A stretch of DNA of 38,161 nt. It comes from Gammaproteobacteria bacterium. GTDB lineage: Bacteria; Pseudomonadota; Gammaproteobacteria; Pseudomonadales; Pseudohongiellaceae. Each line of letters opens with the position of its first letter. Position 1 is the stretch's first letter. Shown one piece after another: positions 6,565 to 18,272 of this stretch. The stretch spans positions 1 to 38,161 of the forward strand of contig JAESQX010000202.1 of assembly GCA_016764875.1 (NCBI GenBank), written 5' to 3'. Below the pieces are notes generated by a model. It was given only the letters and a program-made list of their open reading frames with translations, was not told the DNA's origin and did not search any database. A program made the position numbers and the translations under genes.

Positions 6565-7719
6565 CTACTTTACCCTGGTGAAATTGTTCCCCAGATCTTT
6601 CAAGTTAACCGGGTCGTAGGAAATGGGTACCCGGGTGGTAAAGCTATTGAGGCGCTGTGAATAACACAGATTATCCTGCTCAAGGAACTTGAGCGCCGCC
6701 TTATGCACCATTACCGGCAATGTTGATTGCTTCTCGCGTTTTAATACCTGCATCACCCGCGGTTCCTTTTTGAAGCCATCCCCGTGATAGTGGATAGTAA
6801 AATTGTCCCGTACAAGATCGTAGTCCACCCACTTGAACAGGGGTTTGGAAAACGTTACTTCCGGTGATTTAACAGAGTCTTGCAGACTCTTTATCATGTG
6901 ATCCAGAGAAATGTTTCCCAACTGGCAATCGTGATAGCTGCCACCCACGTCGCCGTGGACGCCGGGCATCCATATTTCCTCAGAGCGCTGGTTGAAATTG
7001 GTCAACGTAGGAACGAAGGCTTCGCGACTTTCGTCAATGGCCACCAGGTGCACCGCTTTCTTGATATTGGGAGCCAGGGTCAGGTCGCGGAACAGGTTTA
7101 TCTTTTGAAAATTCAGGGGGCCTATCTTCAATGGAATGCCAAATGCTCCCACTGTATCAAACAGTCCAAGAAAGCTGATATCCACGTCCCGGCTGTCTTC
7201 CTCTTCAGCCTTGTAGTGAGTAAACAACCATTCCTTTATAGAGGTGTTTTTATTTTTGGCCTGTCGGTAAAATAAGGTGATTTTTTTTGGCAAACCGTGT
7301 TCGTTCAGTTTACTTGCAAGCAGCCTTGCGCTGGCGGCACCACGGCTGAAGCCAAAAATACAAATCTGATCCCCAGGGCGATAATGTTTGCAAATTGATG
7401 CGTAGGCGTGGTCGCGAATATTCCTTTCGCCTGCACCGAATGCGCCCTGGTAAAAACCGATGGATTTTATGTTTTCTTCGTCATTGCCTACACCTCGAAA
7501 GTACAGGCCGAGATGTTTTGCCGTGGATTTTATATGGGGGATATCAGTGTTCTCATGATGGCCGGACAAAGAGGAGAACATTTTGTATATATTGGTAATG
7601 GCACCGTCGTTGTTACGACCGTTCTCATCGTTGAAGGTCCCGTCCATAAATATTAGCAGGGTGCGGGGAGTTGGCCTGTCCTGGAGGTTGACCTGAATGG
7701 TGTCTTTTTTCTGTGCCAT
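6565..7719 (-). CDS. DUF2235 alpha/beta hydrolase (Tle1-like phospholipase domain)
   Basis: A 384-aa protein whose whole length matches the DUF2235 hydrolase fold. It starts with RTLLIFMDGTFNDE, carries the nucleophile elbow IFGFSRGAASAR (S125, GxSxG), LGLFDTVGAFG (D188 as likely acid) and MPGVHGDVGGSY (H255 as likely base). Proteins with this domain include type VI secretion phospholipase effectors (Tle1) but also housekeeping or unknown proteins. No vgrG, PAAR, adaptor or immunity-like membrane/lipoprotein gene is adjacent, and there is no signal peptide, so effector status is unsupported. The start is backed by CGGAGAA upstream. It is convergent with the transposase-like gene (41-base gap). 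Confidence 0.8.
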   Translation of the reverse strand: MAQKKDTIQVNLQDRPTPRTLLIFMDGTFNDENGRNNDGAITNIYKMFSSLSGHHENTDIPHIKSTAKHLGLYFRGVGNDEENIKSIGFYQGAFGAGERNIRDHAYASICKHYRPGDQICIFGFSRGAASARLLASKLNEHGLPKKITLFYRQAKNKNTSIKEWLFTHYKAEEEDSRDVDISFLGLFDTVGAFGIPLKIGPLNFQKINLFRDLTLAPNIKKAVHLVAIDESREAFVPTLTNFNQRSEEIWMPGVHGDVGGSYHDCQLGNISLDHMIKSLQDSVKSPEVTFSKPLFKWVDYDLVRDNFTIHYHGDGFKKEPRVMQVLKREKQSTLPVMVHKAALKFLEQDNLCYSQRLNSFTTRVPISYDPVNLKDLGNNFTRVK

Positions 7720-12452: not shown

Positions 12453-14708
12453 TCAAAGCTGCCAGGCATAACTCAACTTGGCAAAGATGGTGCGATTGGT
12501 TGACTCGATGGAGTCGAGATCATCGTCCTGAAAACCCGCATCCGAGTAACCAATAAAAAAGCGAGAAGCCGCGTTCAGCCGGTAACTGTACAGCAACTGG
12601 GTAGCCAGGGTTTTGGATCGACTTTGTACTGGATTTACGTAGAGAGACTGATCACGATCTTTGTCTGTGTATTGCAAAGTAAAACGCAGAAAACTGCGGG
12701 TGGTGAACTGGTAGTTAATCCTCGCATCGGTAAGCTTGGCGGTAAATAATCTGCCGCCGTCCACGTCGAACCTCTGCAGTGTGTGATCAAGATTAATTTG
12801 CAGGTGTGGGCCCCAATTGTAAGTTACCTCGGGGCCTATACGTACGGATCGGCCGAGGCGGGTATTGGCGAAATCCACCACGTCTTCCAGGCGAAAATAG
12901 AGATTAAGAAACAGGTCCGAGTTAGGTCTGAAGTTCAATCGAAGCTGATTAAATTGTTCGTCAAAATACTTACCGTTGAAATAGGTCTGGCTGGCACCAA
13001 ACAAGCCTTTCAATCGTGATTGTAGGGGACTGTCCATTTCGATAAAAAACTCGATCTCTTCTTCCAGCTTAAGCCCGGACTGATCAAGAGTCTTGTCCCA
13101 GTCTCCTGCAAACCAGATGCGACTGAAAAAATTATCGTCATCCCAGCGCCAGGTATGGCCGACCCGAATGGTAAATTTGCGATAGTCCACCTGGTTGATG
13201 AAACCAAGGTCGGCGCGAAAATCCTTGCCATAGTCAACGTAGGTGGCAAACCCATCCCAGCGGCTGTCCCGATGTCGGAAGTTCACTACATGTGCATCGT
13301 CACTGAGATTGGCCAGCTGACCAAATTGGGTCTGGATAGCCAGGGGGTATTCGGATTCAGAGTGCAGACTTTGTATGCTCAGGGTGTCGCTGTCAGTTAG
13401 CTGAAACACCCCGTCAACGCCGGTAACAGTGTTTTTGTAACCATCAGCCTGCCGGTCTGTGACTATGGCGCCGATGGTGGAATTATTCAGCACATCGTAG
13501 CGGTAACGCAGCACCGAGATGTCGCTTTCAACGTCACCGAGGGAGCCAACACTGGAACCGAGACTACCGGGAATCAGAAAGCTGGTGCTGGTATCGTTTG
13601 CTGCCAGCAGGCCATAGGAATGATTGCCGGATTTGCCGGTGAGCTTGGTGCCGTAGTCAGGGTCACTAATATTTCTGGTGTGAACAACATTCAGGTAGCT
13701 ATTGAAATAGTCGGCACCGTCCAGGAAGAAAGTTCGCCGCTCTGGAATGAAAAGGCTGAAGGTGGTATTGGTATCCAGCTGGGTTCTATCTGCCTCCACC
13801 TGGGAGAAGTCGGGGTTCAGGGTGGCATTTAAATACAGGTTCTGGTTAATACCCCAGCGCACATCCAGTCCGCCATCGGGATCCAGATTCTCCCGCTCCC
13901 ATTTGCCCGACACCGGGTCACGGGTTTCTACCACAGTGGTGGTGAGGGTGGGCACAACTTCCAGGTTTCTTCCTCTTTCAAGGTTTTCGAATCCCTGGGC
14001 CTTACTGATATCGCACAGGTAGCAGGAAATATTACGATCCCTGGCGCTGTCACTGATCTGGTAGTCGCGGCCTCGGGGATAACGGCGGACAAAGTTTATG
14101 CCCCAGGTTTGTTGAGCCAGGCTCTGGTCAAACCGTAATTGTTTTAGCGGAATGGCTATTTCAACGGTGTAGTTGTCGTCGTTAATTCTGCCAGCACTGT
14201 CCCAGATGGCGTTCCACGAGTGGTCATAGTCGTTGTTAACATCATCATTGATGGCATCCAATTGAACCCCGAATGGATTGACGAAAAACTCGTAGGCACG
14301 CCGCTCATCATTGAAGGTGTCCAGCACGATTCCCACCTGGTCGTGGTTGCGCACATCATCACGATCGCGGTAGTAGGCCCGGATTTCAGTAACGTCGGGA
14401 TCGAAGGAAATGAAAGCAACATACAGCGTTTCTCCATCACCCATGATCAGTGCTTCGGAGGTCACACTGGAGGGGATATTTTCTCCCGGGTTGGTCTCAA
14501 TATTGAGCATCACGCGGGTGGCGGCAGCCCATTCCAATTCACCAATATTGCCATCAATCTCGGGCAGGTCAGTAATTCGTGGAATCTGGTAATCGATATT
14601 CGATTGCTGCGCCACCGACTCAGAGGATATCGAGCCAGAGCCAATAGTCAGAAGCAAGAATATTAGTCGGAGGAATTTGACTGGCCCATTTAACAATACA
14701 GGTCGCAA
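12453..14708 (-). CDS. Outer-membrane CBM9-like/DUF5916 protein
   Basis: A 751-aa exported protein of unknown function. A hydrophobic N-terminus (FLRLIFLLLTIGSG) ending near VAQQ looks like a Sec signal peptide. Residues ~45-240 resemble a CBM9-like beta-sandwich: PEIDGNIGELEWAAA, LYVAFISFDPD, YRDRDDVRNHDQVGIVLDTF and NFVRRYPRGR. Residues ~260-751 are alternating beta-strands of the DUF5916 type (LDPDGGLDVRWGIN, NPDFSQVEADRTQLDTNT, FIPERRTFFLDGADYF), probably an outer-membrane barrel ending FAKLSYAWQL. The start is TTG at 14708 with AAGGA eight bases upstream; no nearby ATG exists. Related proteins are often predicted to act in TonB-linked uptake or surface binding, but no such partner is next door. 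Confidence 0.8.
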   Translation of the reverse strand: MRPVLLNGPVKFLRLIFLLLTIGSGSISSESVAQQSNIDYQIPRITDLPEIDGNIGELEWAAATRVMLNIETNPGENIPSSVTSEALIMGDGETLYVAFISFDPDVTEIRAYYRDRDDVRNHDQVGIVLDTFNDERRAYEFFVNPFGVQLDAINDDVNNDYDHSWNAIWDSAGRINDDNYTVEIAIPLKQLRFDQSLAQQTWGINFVRRYPRGRDYQISDSARDRNISCYLCDISKAQGFENLERGRNLEVVPTLTTTVVETRDPVSGKWERENLDPDGGLDVRWGINQNLYLNATLNPDFSQVEADRTQLDTNTTFSLFIPERRTFFLDGADYFNSYLNVVHTRNISDPDYGTKLTGKSGNHSYGLLAANDTSTSFLIPGSLGSSVGSLGDVESDISVLRYRYDVLNNSTIGAIVTDRQADGYKNTVTGVDGVFQLTDSDTLSIQSLHSESEYPLAIQTQFGQLANLSDDAHVVNFRHRDSRWDGFATYVDYGKDFRADLGFINQVDYRKFTIRVGHTWRWDDDNFFSRIWFAGDWDKTLDQSGLKLEEEIEFFIEMDSPLQSRLKGLFGASQTYFNGKYFDEQFNQLRLNFRPNSDLFLNLYFRLEDVVDFANTRLGRSVRIGPEVTYNWGPHLQINLDHTLQRFDVDGGRLFTAKLTDARINYQFTTRSFLRFTLQYTDKDRDQSLYVNPVQSRSKTLATQLLYSYRLNAASRFFIGYSDAGFQDDDLDSIESTNRTIFAKLSYAWQL

Positions 14709-14754: not shown

Positions 14755-14790
14755 CAAATAAAAACAGGAAGCATGGCCTCCTGTTTTTTA
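14755..14790 (-). terminator. Intrinsic terminator after the redoxin gene
   Basis: An inverted repeat AACAGGA/TCCTGTT (stem arms at 14763-14769 and 14779-14785, 9-base loop) is followed on the minus strand by TTTTTATTT. It lies between the redoxin stop and the DUF5916 start, both on the minus strand. The plus strand also has a T-run (TTTTTT), so it may work in both directions. Confidence 0.75.
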
Positions 14791-14806: not shown

Positions 14807-15379
14807 TTACATACTTGCGGCCGCTTCCAGCACATTGGCAAAATCAGGCCTGATGCGGAAACCTTCTTCGGCAAACTTGTGGCGGATCACACCATCTGGA
14901 TCTATCAGGAAGATGCCCGGATAGGGAATCCCGTAAGCACGATCTCCAGGATCATAATCCAGGTTGCGGATTCCCAGGGCATTAACGTGGCTAACGTCTT
15001 CGTCATGTAGCAACGTAAACTTGATATCCTGGTCTTCTTGCACTTCTTTTAATAGTTCAACGGAGTCGTAGGTAATTGTGGCGATATTAATACCCATAGC
15101 CAGAAACTGATCCTGAATCTCTGTCAGCTGCACGAGCTGAGCTTTACAGAATGGTCACCAGTCAAAGGAGCGGTTGAGTAGCAATAACAAGCCTTTTTCG
15201 CCCTTCAGGTCATCAAAGGTTTTAACATCACCGTTTTGATCGGCGGCCTCAATGGCCACAATGCTGGCGCCTACGGGAAAATCCGGCGCCCAGACATAAT
15301 CCTGGGCCAGGGCGACCTGGCTGAAGGCAATGACAAGCAGTGCAGTCATCAGGTTTGGAAGTCGAAACATGCTCTGCAT
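14807..15379 (-). CDS. Exported redoxin (AhpC/TSA-like), probable selenoprotein with UxxC
   Basis: Read through one in-frame TGA (15157-15155), this is a complete 190-aa thioredoxin-fold protein. Residues 1-26 form a Sec signal peptide (TALLVIAFSQVALA|QDY). The redoxin core begins APDFPVGA and includes LLLLLNRSFDW-U75-PFCKAQL, then YGIPYPGIFLIDPDG with the cis-proline, and VIRHKFAEEG. Relatives have Cys at position 75 (WCPxC); here it is TGA, with resolving C78 kept. The frame before and after is conserved and uninterrupted. A SECIS-like hairpin follows the TGA. ATG at 15379 has AGGAG eight bases upstream. A terminator follows the true stop, none follows the TGA. Selenocysteine is inferred; it needs selA/selB/selC elsewhere in the genome. 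A nonsense mutation is the alternative. Confidence 0.85.
15121..15157 (-). promoter_or_regulatory. SECIS-like element and UGA(Sec) codon
   Basis: On the minus strand TGA (15157-15155) is followed after 14 bases by TCAGCT (15140-15135), loop CGTGC (15134-15130) and AGCTGA (15129-15124), a perfect 6-bp stem. The loop begins 20 bases after the UGA and has G at its second position, as described for bacterial SECIS elements. A lower helix CTGT/ACAG may extend it in place of the outermost T-A pair. Confidence 0.75.
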
Positions 15380-17576: not shown

Positions 17577-18272
17577 TTATTGCAGAGCGGCAAGAAATCG
17601 GTCACGGCGAGGCATATATCTTTTGTCCGAATCAAGGGAGAACACCACAGAACTTGAACGGCCTATGAGTTCAGCCCTGGGTATAAAACTGTAAACTCGA
17701 CTGTCGGCACTGTTATCCCGATTATCACCAAGTACAAAATACTTGCCGGAGGGGACTTCGATGGGGCCGTAACTGCGGGAGGTGCGACTAAAGGAATTGC
17801 GTGACAGTTTGGCCTGGTGGCTGAATTCCAACAATTCTTCAATTATGATCATGGAGTTTGTTTCCTCGGTCACCACTTCATAATTTGCCGCCTGGCCATT
17901 AATCACCAGGGCATTATCCTGTAAATAAATTGTATCACCGGGGATTCCCACTATGCGCTTAACCAGCCGTTTGTCAGCCGCCGCCGAATCTATAATTACG
18001 ATATCGCCGCGCTCCGGATCCGACACAGAAGCTAGGGTTATCTCTGTAAAGGGAATTTTTACATCATAGGCGAGCTTGTTAACCCAGACTTTGTCACCGT
18101 CCAGCAGAGTTGGCTGCATGGAGGCTCCGGAAATTGAGCTGAGATCGGCGATAGCAGTTTTAAAGAAGACGATACAGCAAAGCATAAAAACGAATTGCCG
18201 ATTTTCACGCCAGAACAGCCCGAGATTTTCTTTCACTCGGTCGGGAAGATTGGAATTTAGGAATCGGGCCAT
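17577..18272 (-). CDS. lepB: Signal peptidase I
   Basis: LepB cleaves signal peptides from Sec- and Tat-exported proteins at the periplasmic face. The 231-aa chain has one hydrophobic anchor (FVFMLCCIVFFKTAIA, about 27-42), the catalytic serine S51 in SGASMQPTL, the catalytic lysine K105 in RLVKRIVGIPGDT, and the conserved GDNRDNSADSR box. It is shorter than E. coli LepB and has one apparent membrane segment rather than two, as in many SipS-like forms. There is no LepA or Era/Rnc neighbour, so this is a stand-alone copy. The genome may hold a second lepB. It is divergent from lhr. Confidence 0.93.
   Translation of the reverse strand: MARFLNSNLPDRVKENLGLFWRENRQFVFMLCCIVFFKTAIADLSSISGASMQPTLLDGDKVWVNKLAYDVKIPFTEITLASVSDPERGDIVIIDSAAADKRLVKRIVGIPGDTIYLQDNALVINGQAANYEVVTEETNSMIIIEELLEFSHQAKLSRNSFSRTSRSYGPIEVPSGKYFVLGDNRDNSADSRVYSFIPRAELIGRSSSVVFSLDSDKRYMPRRDRFLAALQ

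Follow-up and report, generated by a model that had tools for sequence, protein, structure and literature searches.

Prx-like thiol:disulfide oxidoreductases with a PF00578 domain and a UxxC motif are an established family of predicted selenoproteins (PMC2398784, PMC9312934, PMC13188914). They include "Prx-like 1" of the GOS survey (PMC2398784) and the UxxC/UxxU proteins in Table 1 of PMC13188914; they occur in marine bacteria and have a bacterial SECIS (bSECIS) just past the UGA. In the bSECIS model, the hairpin lies 16–37 nt from the UGA and has a stem of 4–16 bp, a loop of 3–9 nt with G in one of the first two positions, and an MFE ≤ -7.5 (PMC13188914). Sec-peroxiredoxins (PF00578, TxxU) share the fold but carry Sec at the peroxidatic position. 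The ResA/TlpA/DsbE proteins, which are structurally similar, are secreted or membrane-anchored and have a thioredoxin fold with a CxxC motif.

We analyzed a 38,161-nt stretch of DNA (the window) from a member of the family Pseudohongiellaceae, whose genome (G000) is a 2.75-Mb, 248-contig MAG that is 92.5% complete. We assign a probability of about 0.96 to the reading that one gene in the window encodes a Sec-containing Prx-like (AhpC/TSA-fold) UxxC thiol:disulfide oxidoreductase with a signal peptide, its UGA being decoded via a hairpin. The relevant features are as follows.

14807..15379, minus strand: predicted Sec-containing redoxin CDS, 190 aa with the TGA decoded, matching PF00578 and PF08534
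15302..15379, minus strand: predicted Sec/SPI signal peptide (from sequence), cleavage near ALA/QD, with the A-Q pair kept in relatives
15155..15157, minus strand: in-frame TGA, predicted Sec75, first residue of UxxC, aligned with Cys in 30 homologs and with TGA in 54 others
15146..15148, minus strand: Cys78, putative resolving Cys of UxxC, invariant across all homologs
15124..15140, minus strand: putative bSECIS hairpin (comparative evidence), 6-bp stem, CGUGC loop at 15134–15130, 20 nt after the TGA
14760..14788, minus strand: terminator hairpin, -16.9 kcal/mol, z = -4.6
12453..14708, minus strand: downstream neighbor, DUF5916/CBM9 protein, syntenic in most Sec loci
17577..18272, minus strand: upstream neighbor, S26 signal peptidase, syntenic in nearly all Sec loci

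The redoxin ORF (15379–14807, minus strand) runs from an ATG preceded by AGGAG, through the in-frame TGA at codon 75, to a TAA. Under translation table 11 it is read as two ORFs, 15379–15155 (74 aa) and 15133–14807 (108 aa); the preliminary description had proposed that decoding the TGA joins these truncated genes into one 190-aa redoxin, and the coordinates and length agree. The product matches PF00578 (AhpC-TSA) with 76.1 bits, against a gathering score of 26, and PF08534 (Redoxin) with 52.2 bits. Its active-site motif is WUPFC, and the 30 homologs with Cys at this codon bear out the proposal that the TGA falls exactly at the catalytic Cys of WCPFC with the second Cys retained. As had also been suggested, the N terminus has the appearance of a Sec/SPI signal peptide that ends in ALA/Q. 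The hairpin at 14788–14760 is a genuine terminator downstream of the redoxin stop, in line with the earlier description, although a simple terminator scan made no call there. When the window was scanned for unexplained TGA-interrupted ORFs, only the redoxin and two ORFs antisense to called ORFs were found. Elsewhere in the window, the product of positions 6565–7719 (minus strand), 384 aa long, has a catalytic domain of the Tle1-like phospholipase type (PF09994, 168 bits); no obvious secretion genes surround it.

We aligned 85 distinct homologs from the Pseudohongiellaceae, the window's own included. At the catalytic codon, 55 have TGA, 23 TGC, and 7 TGT, with no other codon represented. As 55 of the 85 share a TGA at one codon and the other 30 have TGC or TGT, the conserved TGA is not due to chance. 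The frame is intact downstream of the TGA and the protein is conserved there (52%–76% identity). The preliminary description had held that TGC or TGT in close relatives of the same species would refute Sec; the nearest relatives carry TGA. In a phylogenetic tree the Sec and Cys forms are set apart by one change, with the exception of a TGA form in genome G014. Most Sec loci share a block consisting of an Lhr-type helicase, the S26 signal peptidase, the redoxin, the DUF5916 protein, and gcvTHP. None of these neighbors was found beside the Cys forms within the stretches examined, and so strict positional orthology may not hold for every Sec and Cys form. A search of phage and viral collections found no relative.

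The hairpin downstream of the TGA, with its 5-nt loop, 6-bp stem, and 20-nt spacing, agrees with the bSECIS hairpin rules in Fig. 2 of PMC13188914. We scored it in 54 of the 55 TGA forms and in the 30 Cys forms. The 15-mer CAGCTCGTGCAGCTG, located at +18 to +32 after the TGA, is identical in 50 of the 54 TGA forms; of the four exceptions, two differ at the last base, one in the loop, and one by a compensatory double change. In L097 a G-C pair of the stem is replaced by A-T, and the paralogs described below likewise contain compensatory changes. Codon choice within the element is frozen in the TGA forms (Leu+7 is CTC in 54/54, Val+8 is GTG in 54/54, and Leu+10 is CTG in 51/54), whereas the median fraction of the commonest codon at their other 4- and 6-fold degenerate columns is 0.48. 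A bSECIS-like hairpin of ≤ -3 kcal/mol was present in 51/54 Sec forms but only 3/30 Cys forms, and the near-invariant 15-mer hairpin is absent from the Cys forms. Such a hairpin arose in 34% of cases under a synonymous-codon null, so the amino acids alone partly favor it. The MFE criterion (≤ -7.5 over +3 to +53) is not discriminating, because it was satisfied by 25/30 Cys forms as well as 53/54 Sec forms. The fold energy of the window hairpin taken singly was no better than that of shuffled sequences, so the support for a SECIS element is comparative. An Rfam search gave no match at this position. The case for a putative SECIS element rests on the frozen sequence together with the compensatory changes.

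The preliminary description had called for a search of the genome for selA, selB, selD, and tRNA-Sec (selC), and regarded the absence of selA, selB, or selC from a complete genome as decisive against Sec. That case does not arise here. In this incomplete MAG, SelA (G000:C84, 518 bits) and SelB (322 bits against a cut-off of 242, with its C terminus lost at a contig end) are present, as is SelD in the form of an Ndh-SelD fusion (276 bits against a cut-off of 125); tRNA-Sec was not found, either over cut-off or by a core-pattern search. The fusion protein (L055:3340-5640, minus strand) is the only SelD over cut-off in G000, and its match to TIGR04369 ("fusion_not_SelD") is 461, below that model's cut-off of 700. 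Fusions of this type are known from GOS data (PMC2398784), and a fusion is also the best SelD match in the Sec-using genomes G004 and G011. A SelD-like fusion over cut-off is present in the Sec-using genomes G004, G011, G014, and G001 and absent from G002, G008, and G009.

Of 19 genomes tested, 16 have a tRNA-Sec over cut-off; those lacking one are G000 plus two Cys-form genomes, G030 and G034. It was found in 9/9 genomes of genus g5 that carry the TGA ortholog, including the single-contig genome G059, and the anticodon in the relatives is UCA. In g5 (L063–L074), tRNA-Sec is separated from selB and in most cases sits beside the same conserved gene for an exported protein, while in other genera it adjoins selA or selB. 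We rejected the truncated selB contig as the sole reason for the missing tRNA-Sec in G000, given its separation from selB in g5. The gene that adjoins tRNA-Sec in the g5 relatives is also absent from G000, which suggests, but does not prove, that both fall in an assembly gap. Among the matches listed, SelA is present in 15/15 genomes with a TGA redoxin (ortholog or paralog) and in 17/81 others (Fisher p = 4e-9, with relatedness ignored).

If this genome were viewed singly, the TGA could be a Cys codon that had mutated in a pseudogene or been misread in sequencing, and a fragmented MAG in which tRNA-Sec was not found would allow such a reading. The recurrence of the same TGA in 55 distinct homologs, with a conserved downstream protein and a frozen hairpin, makes it extremely improbable, and we regard it as refuted by the conserved TGA and intact downstream frame in many species. 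The missing tRNA-Sec in G000 might also be taken to mean that the UGA is read as Trp or Cys through recoding or a variant code. This too is very improbable, if marginally less so: in the alignment the TGA is matched by Cys but in no case by Trp, the genome encodes SelA and SelB, the hairpin conforms to the SECIS model, and the relatives have a tRNA-Sec with a UCA anticodon. The pairing of Cys with TGA, the TGA-specific bSECIS, the SelA/SelB/SelD-fusion set, and the relatives' tRNA-Sec thus uphold the proposed UxxC selenoprotein, and the apparent stop codon almost certainly encodes Sec at the catalytic position.

Which reaction a selenoprotein of this kind would catalyze is a separate matter. 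An AlphaFold model (pLDDT 84) places Sec75 at the start of the long helix. The PDB structures that match the model best are BCP/PrxQ-type peroxiredoxins, and ResA scores highly as well. These folds, together with the AhpC-TSA match, are what one would expect if the main activity were that of a thiol peroxidase, a reading that we take seriously but consider the less probable one. Against it, alignment with the solved peroxiredoxin 5enu puts Sec75 at the Thr of TxxC and Cys78 at the peroxidatic Cys; UxxC is the pattern of thiol:disulfide oxidoreductases, while Sec-peroxiredoxins have TxxU; and ResA/DsbE relatives match too. Because of the positions of Sec75 and Cys78, we think, without strong confidence, that the protein is more likely a periplasmic thiol:disulfide oxidoreductase than a dedicated peroxidase. 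The periplasmic location is probable in view of the predicted Sec/SPI signal peptide, the one feature from which it was deduced. For Sec insertion, export, chemistry, and substrates, we infer the following course: the hairpin 20 nt downstream would direct the decoding of UGA75 by SelB and Sec-tRNA-Sec; in the exported protein, Sec75 would be the nucleophile that attacks a disulfide or peroxide; its resolution by Cys78 would give a selenylsulfide; and a periplasmic reductant would then recycle the selenylsulfide.

The statement that UxxC thioredoxin-fold selenoproteins are known from marine metagenomes is borne out by "Prx-like 1", and the window protein shares with that class its Pfam domain, its UxxC position, and a predicted bSECIS just past the UGA. 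It differs from the GOS Prx-like proteins, which we compared by description only, in its predicted signal peptide, its RSFDWUP[FY]C motif, and its near-invariant SECIS. Unlike Sec-peroxiredoxins, it lacks TxxU and has Sec as the N-terminal residue of its motif. Relative to ResA/TlpA/DsbE, it has Sec in place of the first Cys and scores far below the family cut-offs. The best NCBIfam match, over residues 41–137, is to the SelL-related redox protein NF040769, but at 53.1 bits against a cut-off of 120 the redoxin is not a member by that model. As no NCBIfam model reaches its cut-off, current annotation pipelines, it seems, would not recode the TGA; this, with the split under table 11, fits the earlier expectation that gene callers would miss the gene. 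Among the papers searched, none names Pseudohongiella together with selenoproteins. What is known, then, is the UxxC Prx-like class; what is new is a conserved, signal-peptide-bearing Pseudohongiellaceae subfamily that lies below every NCBIfam cut-off.

Besides the window redoxin, G000 contains three more redoxin genes with a TGA, in the motif W-U-P-Y-C.

L056:1699-2892, minus strand: paralog, in-frame TGA at W-U-P-Y-C
L057:3215-4384, minus strand: paralog, in-frame TGA at W-U-P-Y-C
L058:4873-5622, minus strand: paralog, in-frame TGA at W-U-P-Y-C

Two of the products are ~390–400 aa long and one is ~250 aa with N-terminal membrane segments. The L056 and L057 genes share the SECIS hairpin of the window redoxin, and a compensatory change distinguishes the two. 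The single-contig genome G059 (6.6 Mb) has four TGA redoxin paralogs of ~400 aa in addition to the ortholog (L158, at 5338 and 6695; L159; L160), two of them in tandem. A DUF5916 gene also adjoins the C38 paralog; we rejected a functional link, as paralog loci elsewhere have no consistent DUF5916 neighbor.

The TGA redoxin of G014 (L167:5357-5869, plus strand) falls inside a clade of Cys redoxins from the same genus (UFBoot 99, SH-aLRT 98). G014 has SelA, tRNA-Sec, and a SelD fusion, and its sisters G002, G009, G030, and G036 lack SelA; the family hairpin is absent from the G014 gene. Its TGA may reflect a Cys-to-Sec change, retained ancestral Sec, or a sequence error. A broader reading, which we hold to be rather unlikely, would combine a Cys-to-Sec reversion in the G014 lineage (genus g3), visible between close relatives, with an expanded extracytoplasmic selenoredoxin network in the Pseudohongiellaceae; in such a network a genome would have as many as four or five UxxC redoxins, with two subfamilies sharing one SECIS sequence.

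These findings point to a whole marine family with predicted exported selenoproteins, each of which standard gene calling would break into two pieces. With 55 homologs in the Sec form and 30 in the Cys form, a near-invariant putative SECIS, and one Sec form within a Cys clade, the data set would be a good test bed for how aerobic ocean bacteria gain and lose Sec and how RNA-level constraint acts on it.
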